DNA of 64,000 nucleotides from Flavobacterium gelidicaeli (GTDB lineage Bacteria; Bacteroidota; Bacteroidia; Flavobacteriales; Flavobacteriaceae): positions 62,001-126,000 of the forward strand of contig NZ_JABSNK010000003.1 of the NCBI RefSeq assembly GCF_013294005.1, read 5' to 3'. This document shows positions 12,648 to 45,168 of the stretch, in pieces. Each line of letters opens with the position of its first letter. Within the stretch, counting starts at the first letter, position 1. Under the pieces are notes generated by a model. It saw only the letters and a program-made list of their open reading frames with translations, did not search any database and was not told where the DNA came from. The translations under genes were made by a program, and so were the position numbers.

Positions 12648-13709
12648 CTATTTTTTGACAGTGATTTTTACGGGTGCATCATTTTTTAATGTCATTACAC
12701 CAGTAGTAATTACAGTATCTCCTGCTTTTAACCCTGATAAAATAAGTAAAGAAGCATCTGTTCTTGTTGCGGTTTCTACCATAATTTCTTTGGCTTTCCC
12801 CATATTTGATATAAATACTTTTTTTCCGTTTTGTACTGGAATAACTGCTTGACTAGGTACCACAATAGCGTCTTTAATTACATCTAACGGCAATTCAACA
12901 TTTGCAAAAGTACCAGGTAATAGTTTTCCATCTTTATTATCAGTAATGGCGCGCACTTGTAGCGTTCTAGTAGTAATTTCTACAGTAGGCTCGATGGCGT
13001 ATACCTTAGCGGCGTAAGTTTTAGATGATCCAGCGACTTTAAAATTCAAAGCACTATTGTTTTTTATTTGGTTAGCATATTTTTCAGGAATCGAAAAAGT
13101 GATTTTAAGTTTACCAATGTTTACAAGATTAGCAACTAAAATACTTGGGGTAATATAGGTTCCTTTAGAAATGGAACGCAAACCAATTATTCCCGAAAAA
13201 GGAGCTCTTACCGCTGTTTTAGCAATTTGCGCTTTAATTAATTGTCCTTGCGCTTTAGTTGAAGCATATTCGGCTCTTGCTACATCATATTCTTCTTGGC
13301 TAATGGCTTCTTTTTGCAATAATAGTTTTGCTCTTCGTTCATTTTCAGCAGCTAAACTTTCTTTTGTGTTGGCTTGGCTTAATTGTGCTCTTAATTCAGT
13401 GTCATTAACCTTAAATAGCAATTGTCCTTTACTCACATTACTGCCTTCTTGAAAATTGATACTTTCAACAATACCAGAAACCTCAGAGCGAATTTCTACT
13501 TGCTCATTAGCTTCTATCGAACCTGATAAAGACAAATTGTTGTCAAAACTTTCTGGTTGAACCACAATCCCAGATAACTGCATGGCTTTAGATTTGCCTC
13601 CTTTATCTTTTGGTCCTTCGTCTTTAGCACTGTTTTCACTAATTCGGTAGGCTATAAAAGCACCAAAACCAACAATTAATAGGGTGTAAATAATGTATTT
13701 GATTTTCAT
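12648..13709 (-). CDS. periplasmic adaptor (membrane fusion protein), efflux system 1
   Basis: A 353-residue protein. The start at 13709 gives an N-terminal membrane anchor (IIYTLLIVGFGAFIAY), and the upstream in-frame extension to 13799 has no support. A biotinyl-lipoyl hairpin domain (SGIVESINFQEGSNVSKGQ), an alpha-hairpin around residues 100-140, a second lipoyl half (VRAPFSGIIG) and a C-terminal beta-barrel follow. It links the pump and the channel. It is the first gene of the three-gene operon, and no regulator gene is adjacent. Confidence 0.92.
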   Translation of the reverse strand: MKIKYIIYTLLIVGFGAFIAYRISENSAKDEGPKDKGGKSKAMQLSGIVVQPESFDNNLSLSGSIEANEQVEIRSEVSGIVESINFQEGSNVSKGQLLFKVNDTELRAQLSQANTKESLAAENERRAKLLLQKEAISQEEYDVARAEYASTKAQGQLIKAQIAKTAVRAPFSGIIGLRSISKGTYITPSILVANLVNIGKLKITFSIPEKYANQIKNNSALNFKVAGSSKTYAAKVYAIEPTVEITTRTLQVRAITDNKDGKLLPGTFANVELPLDVIKDAIVVPSQAVIPVQNGKKVFISNMGKAKEIMVETATRTDASLLILSGLKAGDTVITTGVMTLKNDAPVKITVKK

Positions 13710-13794
13710 AATGTAGATAAAAAAGGAATGTATGTGTTTTAATAAATGTTCTAATATGCGCACAAATGCCTGCAAAATGAAACGGCAGACGTGA

Positions 13795-13861
13795 TACAAT
13801 TATACCTCCAACTAAACTGTATAAATAACAATCAGTTGGTTATAAAAGAGGTGTAATTACA
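13795..13861. promoter_or_regulatory. imperfect inverted repeat upstream of efflux operon 1
   Basis: The arms TACAATTATACCTC and GAGGTGTAATTACAGTA are inverted relatives. An inner pair, CAACTAAACTG and CAGTTGG, is nested inside. No T-run follows, so it is a poor terminator. It lies 86 bases before the adaptor start and could be a regulator site. This is inference only. Confidence 0.3.
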
Positions 13862-13975
13862 GTATCAATTACGTCGTTTATGCAAAGCATTCGATAATAC
13901 TCAAAATTAGACGTTAAAAGAGGGGAATTGTTTCACTTTTAGTGAAAAAAAGTTCAAAAAAAATCAAAGTGGGCA

Positions 13976-16229: not shown

Positions 16230-16342
16230 ATAATACCAAAAACAAGTAATATAGTTCAAACTAATTTTTGTCACCTCGAGCGGAGATGCAATAGTGGTTC
16301 TCGACTCCGCTCAAACTGTTTTATAAATAGTAATGGTATAAC
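16230..16342 (+). repeat. MITE-like dispersed element, copy 1
   Basis: The ends are imperfect inverted repeats (ATAATACCA at the left, TGGTATAAC at the right). Inside, GAGCGGAG and CTCCGCTC form a perfect stem. It aligns along its length with the reverse complement of 45043-45168, sharing TGGTTCTCGACTCCGCTC exactly. No coding capacity. Confidence 0.75.
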
Positions 16343-17614: not shown

Positions 17615-18250
17615 ATGGCTTTAATAGAAGATTTAAACTGGAGACACGCGGTAAAAGCGTATGATGCTACAAAAAAAGTAAGTAAGGAAGATGTTGATAA
17701 AATTGTAGAAGCAGCTCGTTTAGCACCCACTTCGTCAGGATTGCAAGCGTTTCAAGTTCTTGTAGTTGAGAATCAAGAGTTGAAAGAAAAATTAGTAAAA
17801 GGTGCTTTGAATCCAGAGTGTATGAGAGACTGTTCACATGTAATTATTTTTGCAGGATGGGATCGTTATACTGAAGAGCGTATTGATAAAGTGTACAACC
17901 ACACTACTGATGTACGTGGTTTAGAAAGAGGACGTTTTAGCAGTTATACTGATATGTTGAAAAAAATGTACTTGGCTCAATCAGCCGAAGAAAATTTTGC
18001 TCACATTGCACGTCAAACTTATATTGCACTTGGACTTTCATTAGCACAAGCAGCGGAATTAAAAGTAGACAGCACGCCAGTGGAAGGTTTTGATAACAGC
18101 GTTGTAGACGAAATATTAGAACTTGACAAATTAGGTTTAAAAAGTGTTTCATTAATGTACGTAGGTTACGCAGATGCTCCAAACGACTGGATTGGACAAA
18201 TGAAAAAAGTGAGAACTCCAACAGAAGAATTTGTTGTTGAATTTAAATAA
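17615..18250 (+). CDS. NAD(P)H-dependent nitroreductase-family oxidoreductase
   Basis: A 211-residue FMN flavoprotein of the NfsB/nitroreductase family. The N-terminal NWRHAVKAYD and the FMN-phosphate region AARLAPTSSGLQAFQ are clear, and the ARQTYIALGLSLAQAAEL helix is typical. It likely reduces quinones, nitro compounds or other electrophiles. It follows ohr by 29 bases and precedes a terminator, so it is probably induced together with ohr during peroxide stress. Confidence 0.88.
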   Translation: MALIEDLNWRHAVKAYDATKKVSKEDVDKIVEAARLAPTSSGLQAFQVLVVENQELKEKLVKGALNPECMRDCSHVIIFAGWDRYTEERIDKVYNHTTDVRGLERGRFSSYTDMLKKMYLAQSAEENFAHIARQTYIALGLSLAQAAELKVDSTPVEGFDNSVVDEILELDKLGLKSVSLMYVGYADAPNDWIGQMKKVRTPTEEFVVEFK

Positions 18251-18303
18251 TCTTCAATAGGGATGTAGTGGTGTTCTTTTAGTTCGCCCTTATTTTACAT
18301 AGA

Positions 18304-18343
18304 AAGCCTAAATCAAAACGTAGTTTTGGTTTAGGCTTTTTTT
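18304..18343 (+). terminator. rho-independent terminator of the ohr operon
   Basis: AGCCTAAA plus CAAAAC pairs with GTTTTG plus TTTAGGCT around a GTA loop, followed by seven T. Confidence 0.9.
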
Positions 18344-18563
18344 ATGTTTATTATTTAAATCACATTACAATGGTTTGTTGGAGCAGACTCAAGAACAATG
18401 ATTGCATCACGACTTTTCTCAGTGTAAAAATTAGGTTGGGTTACTGTGTTTTATTTTTTCTTTCAATTTTTATGCTGCGATTACGGGAAACCGTAAAGAA
18501 TACCCCTTTTTTAGAAATAACTTTGAAAAATAAAACTTTAAATAAAAACAAACCAATCAATGC

Positions 18564-18650
18564 TATATTTGAACACCACGTAAAAACGAAATTAATCCAC
18601 AACAAAGAGAGAGTACACTTTCCTTTTGTTGTGGATTTTTGTTTGGTGTT
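18564..18650 (+). ncRNA. candidate small structured RNA (unassigned)
   Basis: A TATATTTG box (18564-18571) fits the -7 consensus. Directly after it, AACACCA (18572-18578) can pair with TGGTGTT (18644-18650). Inside, AATCCACAACAAA (18594-18606) pairs perfectly with TTTGTTGTGGATT (18625-18637), which runs into five T. A 111-codon frame over this region (18370-18705) does not look like a protein. The rest of the 18251-18770 gap shows only the ohr-operon terminator and the GTTAGCGG site at 18701. Function unknown. Confidence 0.35.
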
Positions 18651-18770
18651 GGGAAAAGTAAATATTAAAATAATTAATTATATGATGATATTATTATATA
18701 GTTAGCGGTAAGACTAGTATAACGAACCGGAAATTTATATAATTAATTATAAACATTTAAAACAAAAATT

Positions 18771-19328
18771 ATGAAAAAAATTATTTTGTTGGCCTTAATT
18801 TTATTTAGTACTGTATCATTAGCGCAGAAATTTAAAGTGACTCCAAATGGCTTAAAAGATTCAGAAAATCTAGAAAAATCGTTTGTAGTAATTCCTATAG
18901 ATGGAAAAACTGCAAAAGAGCTTTATGATGAATCAATAAAATTCATTAATAAAAATTACAAAAGCCCTGAAGATGTAATTAAAGGTAAAACAGAGGGAGA
19001 ATTTTTAAAATTTGAAACATATGCATCAGGCTTTATCACAATAAAAAACGGATGGACAAATGTTCCTTTTAGTGCAAAATATACTATAGAACTAACTTTC
19101 AAGGATGGTAAAGTAAAATATGAGATTATAGAACTTGATATGTACAATTCAACTGATAAGGGACTTCCACTTACTTTTACTGGAGGTACAATGTCTTGGT
19201 CTGTTTATAACAAAAAAGGAGAACTAAAAAAAGAAGGTGTTGACACTAGTATTGAAAATTATTTTAATGGTTATTTAATGTCTATAACCAATTTTATGCA
19301 AGGAAAATTAGCCGAAGACAAATGGTAA
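18771..19328 (+). CDS. secreted DUF4468-like protein
   Basis: A 185-residue protein with a signal peptide (MKKIILLALILFSTVSLAQ). The body resembles DUF4468, a TBP-like fold common in secreted Bacteroidota proteins: VIPIDGKTAKELYDESIKF, a KSPEDVIKGK strand turn, and an alternating strand region ending in YEIIELDMYN. Its function is unknown. Assignment to the domain rests on pattern recall and is moderate. It is the only gene inside the cassette-like unit. Confidence 0.75.
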   Translation: MKKIILLALILFSTVSLAQKFKVTPNGLKDSENLEKSFVVIPIDGKTAKELYDESIKFINKNYKSPEDVIKGKTEGEFLKFETYASGFITIKNGWTNVPFSAKYTIELTFKDGKVKYEIIELDMYNSTDKGLPLTFTGGTMSWSVYNKKGELKKEGVDTSIENYFNGYLMSITNFMQGKLAEDKW

Positions 19329-19334
19329 GTCATA

Positions 19335-19467
19335 CCGCTAACATCGGTTTGGCAATATGGCGGGTTTAGTGTTAAATCGAAAATTTTTGCTTCCATTGAA
19401 GTTCAATGATTATAGAAAATTTCGATTTTTTTAGTCCGCCACATCGCCAAGCCGAGAAATGTTTGCA
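19335..19467 (+). repeat. attC-like fold-back element A
   Basis: The two ends pair along their length: left CGCTAACAT and CGGTTTGGC, then ATGGCGG, against right CCGCCACATCGCCAAGCCG and ATGTTTGC. A 4-base bulge is on one side and most mismatches are G-U type. A second stem lies inside (AAATCGAAAATTT with AAATTTCGATTT) and the tip is CATTGAAgTTCAATG. The AAC (left) and GTT (right) cores sit where integron R boxes would. Related to element B at 21790. Confidence 0.55.
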
Positions 19468-19527
19468 TCAGTTTAAAACCAATACGTCGGAAAATATTAA
19501 AAATTCAATAATTTAAATTAAAAAGAC

Positions 19528-20130
19528 ATGAAAAAAACCACTTTAAAAACGTTAATCGGACTTTTTACATTGACAACTCTTGCGTTAACTTCTTGTTCAG
19601 AAAAGAAACCTAATCGAGATGAAATCGTAAGAAAAAATGCAGAAGAATATTTAAAAGAGAAAATGAATGACCCAAAAAGTTATGAATTTGTAAAGCTGGA
19701 GTTAATTGATTCAGTTTTATACTCAGACAATATAAAATACAGAAAGGAAAATTTCAATAAAAATATCGAAGATAATAAAGATGAAATCAAAAGAAAAGAA
19801 GAATATAAAATTGAAATCCCTTCAATGTATGATGAAAGAGAAATTGAAGAACTGAAAGCAGATATTGCTAAAAATGAGAAAATTATTGCCAAAATAGATT
19901 CTTTAGAAACAAAACTTGGGACTAAAAAAAATCAAGTCGCTTCATATACTTATGTTTTTAGTTTTAGAGGAAATAATGCATTGGGTGCAAAAATATTAAA
20001 TGAATATATTCTCCAAACAAATCCATCACCAGATTTTAAAATTATTAATATGACAGATGATAAAGACAAAGTTTTTTTAAATCCAAATGATTTTCCAGGA
20101 TATAGAGAAATGATAGCTAAAAATTTATAA
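19528..20130 (+). CDS. putative lipoprotein with coiled coil
   Basis: A 200-residue protein. The signal ends in a lipobox (LALTSC, Cys near residue 23), so it should be lipid-anchored in the outer or inner membrane. A charged helical stretch from about 65 to 130 is rich in Lys/Glu/Asp and looks like a coiled coil. A YTYVFSFRGNNALG strand region follows. I do not recognise a family. It lies just after the first attC-like element, in the same orientation as its neighbours. Confidence 0.75.
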   Translation: MKKTTLKTLIGLFTLTTLALTSCSEKKPNRDEIVRKNAEEYLKEKMNDPKSYEFVKLELIDSVLYSDNIKYRKENFNKNIEDNKDEIKRKEEYKIEIPSMYDEREIEELKADIAKNEKIIAKIDSLETKLGTKKNQVASYTYVFSFRGNNALGAKILNEYILQTNPSPDFKIINMTDDKDKVFLNPNDFPGYREMIAKNL

Positions 20131-20138
20131 AAGCCAGA

Positions 20139-20262
20139 CCATAACAGCAGTTACACAATACACAAGACTTTATTTGATTACTGATTTGTATTAAGTTTTA
20201 GTTAAGCTGAAAATTGACCGGTTACGAACTTCTAACCATATTAAAGCAGCAAAACGTTGTAT
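20139..20262 (+). repeat. possible degenerate attC-like element
   Basis: CCATAACAGCAGTT at the left recalls the AACATCAGTT start of element B, and GCAGCAAAACGTTGTATG at the right ends in an AACGTT core. The pairing between the ends is weak and there is no GGCGG/CCGCC stem. It is placed between two cassette-like genes. Low confidence. Confidence 0.2.
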
Positions 20263-20987: not shown

Positions 20988-21006
20988 AAAACGGGGTAGC
21001 CGAAAA
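20988..21006 (+). repeat. shared leader motif, copy 1
   Basis: AAAACGGGGTAGCCGAAAA lies 42 bases before the gene at 21049. A near copy lies at 22103-22123, 33 bases before the gene at 22157, and both are followed by a GAGTA segment. Confidence 0.5.
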
Positions 21007-21048
21007 CCACAATATTGAAAGAGTAGGCAACACATAAATTTTTACAAA

Positions 21049-21477
21049 ATGAAAAAATTGATTTTATCACTAACTTTTATGTTAGTTACTGTATTAGGTT
21101 TTAGTCAAAATATAACCTACTCTAAAGACTATAATGGAAATACTGTTGCAAAAGACCAGTATGGAAATGTTATAGCAAAAGGTTCTACTGACTACTCGGG
21201 TAATTTCGTTTGGAAAGATCAATATGGAAATGTAATCAGTAAAGAATCAAAAGATTACTCTGGAAGAACTGTATCAAAAGACCAGTATGGAAATACACAA
21301 AGTACAAGGTCAACTGATTATTCTGGTAATGTAGTACAGAAAGACCAATATGGCAATACTGAGTACACTTATAAAAAAGATTATTCAGGTAATACAGCAG
21401 TTTATGATAGCAGAGGAAATAAGGTTGGGACTTACAAGAAAGATTACTCTGGTAAAACTGTCTTTATAGAGGAATAA
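21049..21477 (+). CDS. secreted tandem-repeat protein (DYSG/DQYGN repeats)
   Basis: A 142-residue protein. After a signal peptide (MKKLILSLTFMLVTVLGFSQ) the whole mature chain is a tandem array. A 21-residue unit, DYSGNxVxKDQYGNxxxK plus 3, occurs about five and a half times. Each unit is itself two similar 10-11 residue halves, each with a Gly-Asn turn. Such Tyr/Gly/Asn repeats suggest a beta-solenoid or YD/RHS-like hairpin stack outside the cell. The last units drift. No family assigned. The repeats are visible in the DNA as well. Confidence 0.8.
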   Translation: MKKLILSLTFMLVTVLGFSQNITYSKDYNGNTVAKDQYGNVIAKGSTDYSGNFVWKDQYGNVISKESKDYSGRTVSKDQYGNTQSTRSTDYSGNVVQKDQYGNTEYTYKKDYSGNTAVYDSRGNKVGTYKKDYSGKTVFIEE

Positions 21478-21777: not shown

Positions 21778-21789
21778 AAAACGGCATTG

Positions 21790-21911
21790 AACATCAGTTT
21801 GGTAAAATGGCGGATTTATTACTAAAATCAACAGTTATTCTTCGATTGAACTTTAGTACAAAGTTAAAGTTTTGTGTTTCTATTTTCGCCACTTCGCCAA
21901 GCGGCAAAACC
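21790..21911 (+). repeat. attC-like fold-back element B (decayed right end)
   Basis: The left arm AACATCAGTTTGG plus ATGGCGG differs from element A at only a few positions. The right arm CGCCACTTCGCCAAGCGG pairs with it. The central TTCGATTGAACTTTAG also aligns with A. The terminal GTT of the right half-site is missing, so this copy may be inactive. It follows the DUF2188 pseudogene, as A follows its own gene. The rest of the gap to 22102 shows no gene. Confidence 0.5.
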
Positions 21912-22102
21912 TCAGGCTGCGAAAGAACCAAGTTAAAATAAGAAATTATTCGAGGAACTGTCGAATAAAATTTCATACAGACGATTCTTAGAAGTACCAT
22001 TTGAGTTTATACACTGACTGATGTTATGAGCTAGTTTAGAGTTAAAATGTCATAAGGAATTCAATTAGTAAAATTAATATGGAGTCCAGAAACCATAAAT
22101 TT

Positions 22103-22123
22103 AAAACGGGGCGTAACCGAAAA
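22103..22123 (+). repeat. shared leader motif, copy 2
   Basis: AAAACGGGG then CGTAACCGAAAA, close to the motif at 20988. It could be a regulatory site or a remnant of a shared insertion boundary. Confidence 0.45.
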
Positions 22124-22156
22124 GCCTAACGAGTAAGAAAATTAAATTAATATAAA

Positions 22157-25636: not shown

Positions 25637-26116
25637 ATGACTGCAACAATAACCACATTAGCCGAGAAAAAAGTGATAGGCATTCCCATGGAAATGTCTT
25701 ATGCTGATTATAAAGCACGGGAATTATGGCAACGTTTTATGCCCAAACGCAACGAAGTTCAAAATAGAGTAGGTGCTGATTATTTTTCAATAGAAGTGTT
25801 TAGTACAAGCTATTGGGATCAGTTTAACCCAACTGCAACTTTCCAGAAATGGGCTGCAGTTACAGTACCACATTTTGATACTATTCCCGCTGGAATGCAG
25901 TCATTAGTGATTCCTGCTGGCTTGTATGCGGTTTTTATTTACAAAGGTGATGAAACTGGTGCTCCAGCTTTTTTTAAAGCTATTTTCACCTCTTGGTTAC
26001 CTAGTTCTATTTACATACTGGATGATCGTCCGCACTTTGAAATCTTAGGAGACAAGTATAAAAGAGGGGACACCAACTCTGAAGAAGAAGTTTGGATTCC
26101 GATACAATTAAAATAA
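25637..26116 (+). CDS. GyrI-like / AraC effector-binding domain protein
   Basis: A 159-residue stand-alone effector-binding domain. The order of strands and the VVxxPAGxYAVF-like turn (LVIPAGLYAVFIYKGD), followed by a helix with FFKAIFTSWLP and a late DRPHFEILGDKY segment, match GyrI/Rob C-terminal domains. Members bind small hydrophobic molecules or inhibit gyrase. No DNA-binding part is attached. A likely single gene with its own promoter box. Confidence 0.75.
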   Translation: MTATITTLAEKKVIGIPMEMSYADYKARELWQRFMPKRNEVQNRVGADYFSIEVFSTSYWDQFNPTATFQKWAAVTVPHFDTIPAGMQSLVIPAGLYAVFIYKGDETGAPAFFKAIFTSWLPSSIYILDDRPHFEILGDKYKRGDTNSEEEVWIPIQLK

Positions 26117-27771: not shown

Positions 27772-27830
27772 TAATTTAAGCTGATCATTATTAACTTTAC
27801 GTTTAGTTGAAGCATTTATAAAAATAAAAC

Positions 27831-28277
27831 ATGATAATAGATAAAATAGAAAATCAAGGTCTTTATACCCACATTAGTAAGCGCTTAGCAAAAGGTTTTG
27901 AATTTATCAATAAAAGCAATCTAGAAACTATTGCACCAGGAACGTATGAAATTGACAATAAGGAAGTTTTTGCGATTGTTATGGAGTACGATACTAAAGA
28001 GGTAAAAGATTGTGTATTAGAAGGGCATGCAAAGTATATTGATATTCAATATATAATTGAAGGCATCGAATTAATGGGCGTTACAACTAAAAAACATCAA
28101 AAAATAGTGACTAGTGATGTAGTTAAAGATTATACTTTTTATGAAGGAGAAACTTCTTTAGTAAGTATAGGAGCAGGGATGTTTACGGTATTTTTTCCAG
28201 ATGATTTACACATGCCTTGCATACAAGCAGGCAAAAGTTCAAGAGTAAAAAAGATAGTGGTCAAAGTTCAGGTTTAA
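27831..28277 (+). CDS. YhcH/YjgK/YiaL (DUF386) family protein
   Basis: A 148-residue cupin-like protein. GHAKYIDIQYIIEG and FFPDDLHMPCIQAG are the family signatures, with His residues of the putative metal site. Family members, including YiaL and NanQ, work in sugar-acid or sialic-acid metabolism, possibly as anomerases. No sugar operon is near, so the substrate is open. It is transcribed towards the efflux operon 2 terminator. Confidence 0.85.
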   Translation: MIIDKIENQGLYTHISKRLAKGFEFINKSNLETIAPGTYEIDNKEVFAIVMEYDTKEVKDCVLEGHAKYIDIQYIIEGIELMGVTTKKHQKIVTSDVVKDYTFYEGETSLVSIGAGMFTVFFPDDLHMPCIQAGKSSRVKKIVVKVQV

Positions 28278-28538
28278 GTTGGCTTAAATTCAGATAGTGT
28301 TTTTCACAATCAATTTACCAGAATAATTTAAAAAAAGAGTAAATATCTCCATTAAAATTAATGCATCTTAATAGTATTCTAAGCTAAAAATATTCATTCA
28401 ATCATTACTAAGCTCACTGTTAATCGCAATTAGTAATTAAGTTTAATTTAAACGATGTTTTGCACATGGAAAATTTGCGCATAATGGTAAAACATAGCTT
28501 TTTTGTAAAAAAATCTTTAGTTTATGATGTTCTAAATA
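28278..28538. other. intergenic stretch
   Basis: Convergent gap between the YhcH-like gene and efflux operon 2. Apart from the hairpin at 28539 I see no feature. Confidence 0.4.
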
Positions 28539-28572
28539 AAAAGCCATTAAACATTACTGCTTAATGGCTTTT
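28539..28572 (-). terminator. terminator of efflux operon 2
   Basis: AAAGCCATTAA and TTAATGGCTTT form an 11-base perfect stem. T-runs on both sides would allow termination from both directions. Confidence 0.85.
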
Positions 28573-28615
28573 ATCAAATTAAAATTAACTAATTAATTCT
28601 GGGTACAAAATTAAG

Positions 28616-30016
28616 CTATTGCCATCCACCACCAAGGGCTTTGTATAATTGAATAATGGCTTTATATTGTTGAAACTTGTTGTCTACAAGACTTAATTCG
28701 GCATCTAGAGCTGCATCTTTAGCAGTTAAAACCTCTAAATAATTTGCCAAACCATAGTTTAATAACTCATCAGAGAAAGAACTTGCTTTAGTCAATGCTG
28801 CGGCTTGTTTTTCACGAACAGTAATCTTATAGGTTTCATTATTGTATTGTGCTAAAGCATTCGAAACTTCTTTTCCTGCTGTTAGCAAAGATTTTTCAAA
28901 TTGTAAATACGCTTTTTCTTGATTTGCTTGTGCTACTTCATATTTAGTTCTCACTTGTCTTTGATTTAAAAGAGGTTGTGTTAAACCTGTAATTACATTG
29001 GCGAAAAGCGAATTAGCACTAAACCATTCTTTTAAATCGATACTTTGTAAACCACCAGTAGCAGTCACTTTTAACGTTGGATAAAAACCACTTTTGGCAA
29101 CGTTAGTCATCTCAAAGTTAGTAATCAAGTTGTATTCTGCGGCAATAACATCAGGTCGGTTTCTCAATAAGTTTGCAGGAACACCTAAGGTGATTGCAGG
29201 TTGCATATTTTGCGATTCAAATGTACTGCGTTCAATTTTACCAGATGCCTCTCCTAAAAGCGCGCTCATAGTATTTTCTAGAACGATAGCGCTATTTTTT
29301 AAATCGGCAATAATAATTTCTGTTGCGTATTTTTGCGCTTCTGTTTGTTTAACACCAACTTCAGTTACATTTCCAGCTTTTTTTAGCGCGATAATAGTCT
29401 CAACACTTTGATTTCTATTAATCAAGGTTTTCTCAGCCACTTTAATTTGTGCATCTACTGATAACAATTGGTAATAGGTAGTAGCAATACCGGCAATCAA
29501 TTCAGTTTTAATTGCTTGATTAGCGGCACCAGTTTGTAAAAATGCAGCATTAGCAGCACGTTTATTGCTTCTTATTTTACCCCAAATATCAGCTTCCCAA
29601 GAAAGGCTTCCGTACAATTGGTATTGATCAGTATTCAAATCACTCAAGAAAGATCCTGATTGACTGTTTTTAGATATTTTATTGTGCGTCCAGTCTGTAC
29701 TTGCAGATAGTGTAGGTAAGTAGCCCGCTTTACCTTGCAACATAGTCGATTTTGCGGCAGCTAAATTTTGCATTGCAATACGAATATCCAAATTGTTTTT
29801 CAATCCCTTATTAATGTATTCTTGCAATAATGGATCAGTAAAAAGCTTGTCCCATGAAACATTTGCTAAAGAAGCAGTGTCAGAGGACACCACTTCATTA
29901 CGATACAAATTTTCGGTTTTAAGCTCAGGACGTTTATAGTCTTTGGCAACAAAACACGATTGCATTACGGTTGCCGTCACGACTAATAAAGTGACTTTAT
30001 ATATTTTATTTTTCAT
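28616..30016 (-). CDS. outer-membrane efflux lipoprotein, NodT/OprM family (efflux system 2)
   Basis: A 466-residue channel with a lipoprotein signal (MQSC, Cys near residue 21). The body has the two tandem halves of long helices, ending AIIQLYKALGGGW, typical of NodT/OprM channels. The start overlaps the end of the pump gene by 11 bases, so the two are translated together. It forms the outer-membrane exit of the pump. Confidence 0.92.
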   Translation of the reverse strand: MKNKIYKVTLLVVTATVMQSCFVAKDYKRPELKTENLYRNEVVSSDTASLANVSWDKLFTDPLLQEYINKGLKNNLDIRIAMQNLAAAKSTMLQGKAGYLPTLSASTDWTHNKISKNSQSGSFLSDLNTDQYQLYGSLSWEADIWGKIRSNKRAANAAFLQTGAANQAIKTELIAGIATTYYQLLSVDAQIKVAEKTLINRNQSVETIIALKKAGNVTEVGVKQTEAQKYATEIIIADLKNSAIVLENTMSALLGEASGKIERSTFESQNMQPAITLGVPANLLRNRPDVIAAEYNLITNFEMTNVAKSGFYPTLKVTATGGLQSIDLKEWFSANSLFANVITGLTQPLLNQRQVRTKYEVAQANQEKAYLQFEKSLLTAGKEVSNALAQYNNETYKITVREKQAAALTKASSFSDELLNYGLANYLEVLTAKDAALDAELSLVDNKFQQYKAIIQLYKALGGGWQ

Positions 30017-45042: not shown

Positions 45043-45168
45043 GTTATACCAATACTATTTCTAAAACAGGCCAATTATTAATTCGAGCGGAGTCGAGAAC
45101 CATTATTGCTTCTCGCTCGATGTGACAAAAATCAATATCGACTAAATTGTACTCTTGAGTGGTATTAC
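45043..45168 (-). repeat. MITE-like dispersed element, copy 2
   Basis: Inverted relative of 16230-16342. The ends are GTTATACCA and TGGTATTAC. Inside, TCGAGCG and CGCTCGA plus GAGAA and TTCTC pair. It shares GAGCGGAGTCGAGAACCA with copy 1. The following stretch, 45169-45614, shows nothing I can name. Confidence 0.75.

Follow-up and report, generated by a model that had tools for sequence, protein, structure and literature searches.

Canonical integrons (class 1 integrons, the Vibrio superintegron and the sedentary chromosomal integrons) comprise an integrase gene, an attI site and head-to-tail cassettes that mostly contain one sense Open Reading Frame (ORF). The R''/R' boxes of a cassette site are complementary with the start of the same cassette, the core is AAC/GTT (a slash marks the junction), and the bottom strand is the better folder; the system described here shares all of these features. 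The additional domain (I2) of the integron integrase IntI lies between the catalytic K and H. In chromosomal integrons of Treponema, Chlorobi and Planctomycetes, the integrase is a canonical IntI and has the same orientation as the cassettes. In PMC7790495, single-strand recombination and the I2 domain are described as occurring only jointly and solely in integron integrases, with the gain of I2 as the innovation behind them. In PMC8138268 the insertion is not fully conserved in an integron-like subgroup, yet essential for function. The canonical attC features used for comparison are those of PMC2727003. Bacteroidota are among the phyla listed with integrons (PMC8618304); in PMC2426708 intI was found in the Bacteroidetes/Chlorobi group, and the IntegronFinder 2.0 paper reports one complete Bacteroidetes integron, in Salinibacter.

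The locus analysed here lies in a stretch of 64,000 nucleotides from Flavobacterium gelidicaeli (the window). The original prediction, made from the sequence, was an integron cassette, possibly of a Bacteroidota variant or a related system, and this is supported by genome-wide copies of the tail, by the complementarity of cassettes with their own tails, and by a recombinase and an attI-like site adjoining arrays. The unit is very probably a solitary cassette belonging to an integron-type system with a wide distribution in Bacteroidota. Re-reading of the bases confirmed that the start GTTAGCGG (18701-18708) and the tail CCGCTAAC (19335-19342) are complementary at 8 of 8 positions, and this match had been understated, as it extends to 14 of 15 bases: the start reads GTTAGCGGTA-A-GACT and the reverse complement of the tail GTTAGCGGTA-T-GACT, with position 11 as the sole mismatch. 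If all bases are taken as equally frequent, a rough calculation for the 71 GTT sites within 3 kb upstream predicts about 0.07 chance matches of 8/8 and about 0.004 of 10/10. The end-to-end fold-back proposed for the tail also held, with z at -5.3 for the DNA fold of 19335-19467 and at -5.8 for the RNA fold of 19330-19480, and none of 200 shuffles was as good in either case. The unit had been placed at 18701-19467; its start stands, but its end does not, as 19467 already covers the beginning of the segment that follows. The best cut point precedes the GTT at 19461, which places the cassette at 18701 to about 19460 (Table 1).

Table 1. Features of the cassette region (positions in the window)
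Feature	Position	Strand	Evidence or sequence
Complete cassette: start box, one ORF, hairpin attC-like site	18701..19460	+	start-tail 14/15
Left insertion flank	18680..18700	+	sequence ...TATTATTATATA/
Cassette start box; forms R' of the cassette's site in the circle	18701..18715	+	GTTAGCGGTA-A-GACT
Cassette gene, 185 aa, DUF4468 (TBP-like fold)	18771..19328	+	PF14730
attC-like hairpin site	19330..19463	+	covariance model R1, 129.9 bits
R'' of this site	19328-19342	+	ends CCGCTAAC
L'' of this site	from 19345	+	CGGTTTGGC
Inner arms, L', then junction	GTT at 19461	+	GGCGG and CCGCC; L' GCCAAGCCG; then AAAT/GTT
Third, weak attC-like site	20133..20258	+	R1 25 bits, E 0.0015; ends AAAACGTT
Second attC-like site	21780..21913	+	R1 85.1 bits

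The cassette contains a single sense ORF (18771-19328), whose product matches DUF4468 at 28.3 bits (cut-off 22.6) and begins with a segment resembling a signal peptide by eye. The covariance model score of its site is that of a copy belonging to the model's own alignment. The left flank resembles, by eye only, the A+T-rich right end of attI (TATATACAA/GTT). Three sense attC-like sites were found in the window with R1, at 19330, 21780 and, weakly, 20133, and only for the first does a matching cassette start lie within 3 kb; those at 21780 and 20133 appear to be remnants. In the genomes G047, G124 and G129 no clean empty site of the window cassette was found. Other DNA follows the orthologue of the gene at 17615-18250 in all three, and the region is variable; in G129, for example, the orthologue is followed by a homologue of window 25667-26116. 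No confident R1 site was found there in these genomes, the two matches (E 0.015 and 0.34) both being in locus L277.

Several other elements were observed in the window. A DUF805 RNA (Rfam, above the gathering score) at 22074-22143 (+) is located within the leader of a gene close to the window cassettes, and another copy above the gathering score lies at 13892-13961 (+) of locus L116, between an array site (13665-13800) and an ORF at 13974, so some copies of this RNA may travel with cassettes. A weak DUF805b match (20990-21029, +; 23.4 bits, below the gathering score of 35.6) lies upstream of the gene at 21049, and this gene (21049-21477) contains 63-bp coding repeats at 21121-21470. An inverted pair of a 33-nt repeat (16283-16315 and 45082-45114; 91% complementary, core like TCGAGCGGAGTCGAGA) is also present, and stretches similar to this interspersed repeat were seen by eye near sites in L002 and L070.

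Using BLAST, copies of the tail were matched in 21 of 61 genomes, the window's own included. From 38 BLAST places, 22 copies were aligned (A1), leaving out 8 places without a locus, contig-edge or half matches, degenerate right halves, and the full copies L013 and L014. In these 22 copies, 13 of 18 consensus pairs have both sides changed with the pair kept in some sequences, and the L box shows covariation. For 18 of 26 copies in the BLAST set, the roughly 1.5 kb examined upstream contained a start with a match of 8-10 bases to the tail. The covariance model R1 was built from the 22 aligned copies, and the genome scan that had been suggested as a check then gave at least 74 matches up to E 10 in the window's own genome, many of them in head-to-tail arrays. 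At least 68 of the 74 have E ≤0.001, one being a reverse-strand shadow. These are lower bounds, because 150 of 4939 candidates were scored and further sites were found later. The small contigs C26, C27, C28 and C29 are filled with R1 sites, and more arrays lie on C3, C5, C6, C12 and C17. The window cluster and several other clusters of this genome have no adjacent integrase, in which they are like CALIN elements; they differ from these in that the sites are of another family and an integrase-linked array is present in the same genome. None of the sites in six array loci matched Rfam at the gathering score.

The first cassette after attI in this genome (L070 5108-5389, on C17) has no listed ORF and contains 4.1 copies of a 69-bp tandem repeat. 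Similar starts (GTTATAAT...) are also seen in L073 and L071 and among arrays on contigs C28 and C26, and these cassettes perhaps form a gene-less family. At L070 7749-8436 (C17), a ParD/ParE toxin-antitoxin pair (Pfam above the cut-off) precedes a site whose strand is opposite to that of the array next to it, and this unit looks like a solitary cassette.

Start-end complementarity, expected genome-wide from the original prediction, holds in 35 of 42 array cassettes of the own genome and in 242 of 262 in arrays of related genomes. For the own genome, 69 of the 74 matches were taken in, of which 6 were dropped for having no clear AAC, and 25 of the 42 cassettes agree perfectly with their own tail, against at most 6 in 10,000 permutations. 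The 262 cassettes exclude pairs of more than 3 kb or without a recognisable AAC or GTT; 242 agree with their own tail at no fewer than 6 of 7 variable bases (162 perfectly), and the same layout as in the window cassette (start box, ORF, attC-like hairpin) recurs in them. The physically adjacent tail, which is the pairing partner in place, matches the start in only 13 of 261, and 2000 permutations of start-tail pairs gave a mean of 12 and a maximum of 26. The permutations ignore relatedness among cassettes, while the control with neighbouring tails is independent of it. At least one of the failures in the own genome was traced to a site missed earlier, and 20 of the 262 cassettes fail the test. 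A start complementary to its own tail is as expected if start and tail were once joined in a circle.

The start boxes are conserved in a way that bears out the departure from canonical R boxes noticed in the window. Among 290 cassettes, nearly all start with GTTR (R at position 4), while positions 5-7 do not keep RRY, so that the boxes do not fit the RYYYAAC and GTTRRRY of canonical attC. Nearly all cassette ends have C before GTT. Position 11 is A in nearly all 290 starts, and a single one of the 242 passing cassettes agrees with its own tail there; in 212, a tail C stands opposite the start A, and this top-strand A.C becomes a G.T pair on the bottom strand. When the joined sites of 236 of the 242 passing cassettes were folded as DNA, the bottom strand was more stable in 226 (-31.0 vs -26.7 kcal/mol), with a mean difference of 4.4 kcal/mol compared with 0.25 in 100 shuffled sites. 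The bottom fold is stereotyped, with an outer stem of about 16 positions, a 4-base one-sided bulge, four pairs, opposed unpaired bases and a long stem. The 4-nt bulge is at the place of the spacer in 94-95% of the 236 sites, and the L box has opposed unpaired bases in 72% and 82%, with no clear single extrahelical base. Such mismatches and the one-sided bulge may be a second difference from canonical attC.

A search for a tyrosine recombinase had also been suggested as a check, and such a gene was found. Among six tyrosine recombinase genes in the own genome, two of which are Xer-like, one encodes an integrase of 585 aa and heads the C17 array; it is followed by an attI-like site, TTATATACAA/GTT, and the array on the same strand. 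Homologues of this integrase (E ≤1e-40), mostly of about 350 aa, are present in 83 of 150 genus genomes. These 150 genomes are probably Flavobacterium or close kin, because the F. aciduliphilum integrase falls inside the genus set in the tree. In 60 neighbourhoods of these homologues, after 7 opposite-strand shadows of 340 matches were dropped, 329 of 333 sites are downstream of the integrase on the same strand, and at least one downstream site exists at 47 of the 60 loci. At the other 13 no downstream site was found, which is explained by a contig end within 1.2 kb for five and not for the others. Generally, the attI-like site lies 36-209 bp after the integrase stop and is followed by head-to-tail cassettes. 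The attI position 3' of the integrase gene and the cassettes oriented with the integrase distinguish this layout from that of canonical integrons. Integrons of Treponema, Chlorobi and Planctomycetes are alike in that the integrase is transcribed towards the cassettes, but the Bacteroidota integrase belongs to another lineage.

Across 41 of the 46 loci that have a first site, the last 14 bases of the attI-like site before /GTT give the majority consensus GCGCATATATACAA; two of the 41, L172 and L147, have no attI motif. The variable 6-mer preceding this 14-mer recurs upstream at 5-6 of 6 bases, and of the 34 loci compared, 18 have an inverted copy (shuffled mean 4.3, maximum 10) and 21 a direct one (shuffled mean 5.6, maximum 11). 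In the attI regions, about 100 bp 3' of the integrase (L134, L145, L161, L167 and others), direct and inverted copies of 5-7 nt co-vary between species; these repeats may form alternative hairpins or be bound by the integrase. Four species with integrases that are the own one or 88-90% identical to it have all 30 bases left of /GTT in common, while 42 bases from position 4 on are only 0.21-0.43 identical, a pattern to be expected if different cassettes were inserted at a single point. Cassette entry would thus take place at the attI-like site.

The integrases that head the arrays differ from standard IntI. Against TIGR02249 (IntI, cut-off 265 bits), the own integrase scored 210.6 bits in two pieces and the L180 integrase 207.5 bits, and none of the 150 genus genomes has an IntI match over the cut-off. 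The spacing from the catalytic K to H is 63-69 aa in all 50 homologues measured from the genus and wide sets, compared with 106-111 aa in the 7 of 9 IntI in which it was measurable; about 42 residues of the catalytic part of IntI, at the place of I2, are missing in the array integrases. In the tree, nine IntI, all over the TIGR02249 cut-off, form one clade with a support of 100/100. The array integrases lie in a separate group (95/87; partly unresolved, midpoint root), which also contains nine Pseudomonadota recombinases and a few from other phyla. With NF040815 (XerA-type, cut-off 220 bits), which NCBI names ‘site-specific tyrosine recombinase/integron integrase’, the L180 integrase scored 226.1 bits and the own 585-aa one 191.2, and the top Foldseek matches are XerA and VchIntI4, a Vibrio integron integrase. 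The catalytic fold and the K-to-H spacing are thus like those of XerA-type recombinases and XerC/XerD, from which the array integrases differ in the attI and arrays alongside the gene, an N-terminal extension (also a difference from IntI), and an IntI-like SPLDxL/SPFDxL end.

In the AlphaFold model (pLDDT 87), this extension appears as an extra small beta-beta-alpha-beta-beta domain at the N-terminus of the recombinase; it is single in integrases of about 350 aa and, by eye, repeated in those of about 585 aa. The HARP domain of SMARCAL1 binds branched DNA. HARP (PF07443) is over the cut-off in this domain of one of 10 integrases (L204, 26.2 vs 25 bits) and gave no match at the own 585-aa integrase. 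With Foldseek, the HARP of SMARCAL1 ranks first for the N-terminal domain but at E 0.64, and HARP chains are absent among the 50 VIA matches listed, which speaks neither for nor against the resemblance. A HARP-like nature of the domain is therefore only suggested.

The sites are widespread, with R1 matches in 130 of the 150 genus genomes and in 117 of 296 Bacteroidota genomes, covering 67 of 139 sampled genera. The median number of sites, with counts of up to 22 per genome, is 13 in the 83 genus genomes that have the integrase and 2 in the 67 without, and at least 5 sites are found in 64 of 83 vs 19 of 67. In 51 of the 67 genomes without an integrase match at E 1e-40 sites are still present, and in 4 of the 83 with the integrase no site was found under strict filters. 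For named genomes, R1 was run on 80 integrase or recombinase loci in two sets of 40. Sites are present at 15 loci of the first set, with 26 of 27 non-shadow matches downstream on the integrase strand, and the same layout occurs, among others, in F. aciduliphilum, Algoriphagus, Cyclobacterium, Aquiflexum and Alkalitalea. The second set (nine IntI and 31 others) gave one R1 match, in Pontibacter (L225). On a Chryseobacterium plasmid, six sites lie downstream of an integrase that shares 67% identity with the L166 query, and a second plasmid platform of this genus has one site; both plasmids were typed as non-mobilizable. On the Chryseobacterium oryzae plasmid of locus L257, two copies of a gene pair of IS91 family transposase and tyrosine recombinase lie downstream of the integrase (17969-19911 and 27830-29772).

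In 290 cassettes from 34 genomes, the longest ORF is sense in 256 and antisense in 18, and 16 have none of 50 aa. For 120 cassette proteins chosen from the 247 with at least 80 aa, 36 Pfam families were found, and each of the 25 among the matches listed occurs in one member; PADLOC gave 26 model matches, each of the 25 among those listed likewise in one member, and most of them GajA/OLD-like. In eleven pairs, one of them between two genomes, the cassettes are near-identical over their full length but have different right neighbours (identity 0.23-0.43). The identity of their left flanks ranges from 0.35 to 0.97, and is high in 4 pairs (0.83-0.97), perhaps because the preceding sites are alike. 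Duplicated cassettes beside new right neighbours may be taken as indirect support for cassette movement. The Bacteroidetes -7 promoter motif is TAnnTTTG, and it occurs in 24 of 290 cassette leaders, a weak excess over shuffled leaders (mean 14.8, maximum 23).

Three other explanations were weighed. These could be ordinary integrons with divergent canonical attC sites, whose standard IntI is encoded elsewhere in the genome or lost; the cassette logic, the bottom-strand fold, the C before GTT in nearly all cassette ends and the sites without a detected integrase in some genomes all fit. We consider this very unlikely, since no genus genome of the 150 exceeds the IntI cut-off, the adjacent integrases have the short K-to-H spacing and lie outside the IntI clade, and R1 found no match in nine canonical IntI loci, which were defined by the IntI gene and not by attC arrays. 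Host XerC/XerD might instead move the cassettes, as they do for Xer-exploiting elements, which would fit the sites in genomes with no detected integrase (51 of 67) and the two Xer-like genes in the genome. The number of sites, however, tracks the integrase, attI lies close behind its gene and the arrays are oriented with it, so that this explanation is as improbable as the former.

Finally, the hairpins could be transcription terminators, mRNA stabilisers or interspersed repeats at gene ends, with the arrays being operons. They do fold as RNA and sit after genes on the sense strand, but this would leave unexplained why each tail is complementary, by a unit-specific sequence, to a start that lies hundreds of bases upstream of it, why four species diverge abruptly at /GTT, and why the bottom strand is favoured; the Rfam search of six array loci is also against it. 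This is the least probable explanation of all, though a transcriptional role could coexist with recombination. We thus retain the integron-type cassette system with its own integrase. Judged on sequence, it is an integron by architecture, with an integrase-adjacent array, an attI-like site and own-tail complementarity, and it lies outside the IntI definition and the canonical R boxes, as an integron lineage whose integrase lacks the additional domain.

The following process is proposed. The integrase, a tyrosine recombinase of the XerA/IntI-like branch, would cut the folded bottom strand at AAC/GTT, excise cassettes as circles and insert them at attI or another site. Occasional insertion at A+T-rich secondary sites, such as position 18700 of the window, would generate solitary cassettes. 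The choice of strand would be set by conserved asymmetries, namely the top-strand A.C mismatches that become bottom-strand G.T pairs and the 4-base one-sided bulge, and the small N-terminal domain may read the hairpin in place of the I2 domain of IntI, a suggestion based on its weak similarity.

This integron lineage appears to have been overlooked in Bacteroidota. Searches requiring the additional domain would miss it by design; for example, genes containing this domain were selected in PMC2426708. Relatives of the array integrases may have been seen without their arrays in the integron-like subgroup of PMC8138268. No description of this lineage was found among the literature matches listed (titles and abstract starts, with few subscription papers and no preprints), so a prior description is possible.

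In summary, we give about even chances to the view that Bacteroidota have a second integron lineage of separate phylogeny, whose XerA-like integrase recombines cassettes as folded single strands and, having no I2, relies instead on its N-terminal domain and the asymmetry of mismatches and bulge. With sites in 117 of the 296 genomes and in 67 of the 139 genera sampled, a major phylum may hold a large reservoir of cassettes that has escaped counting. Integrases that head cassette arrays and lack I2 make the account linking single-strand recombination to I2 directly testable. If this view is true, the capture of hairpin cassettes would have arisen twice, or I2 would be a refinement acquired later, rather than the innovation from which integrons arose.
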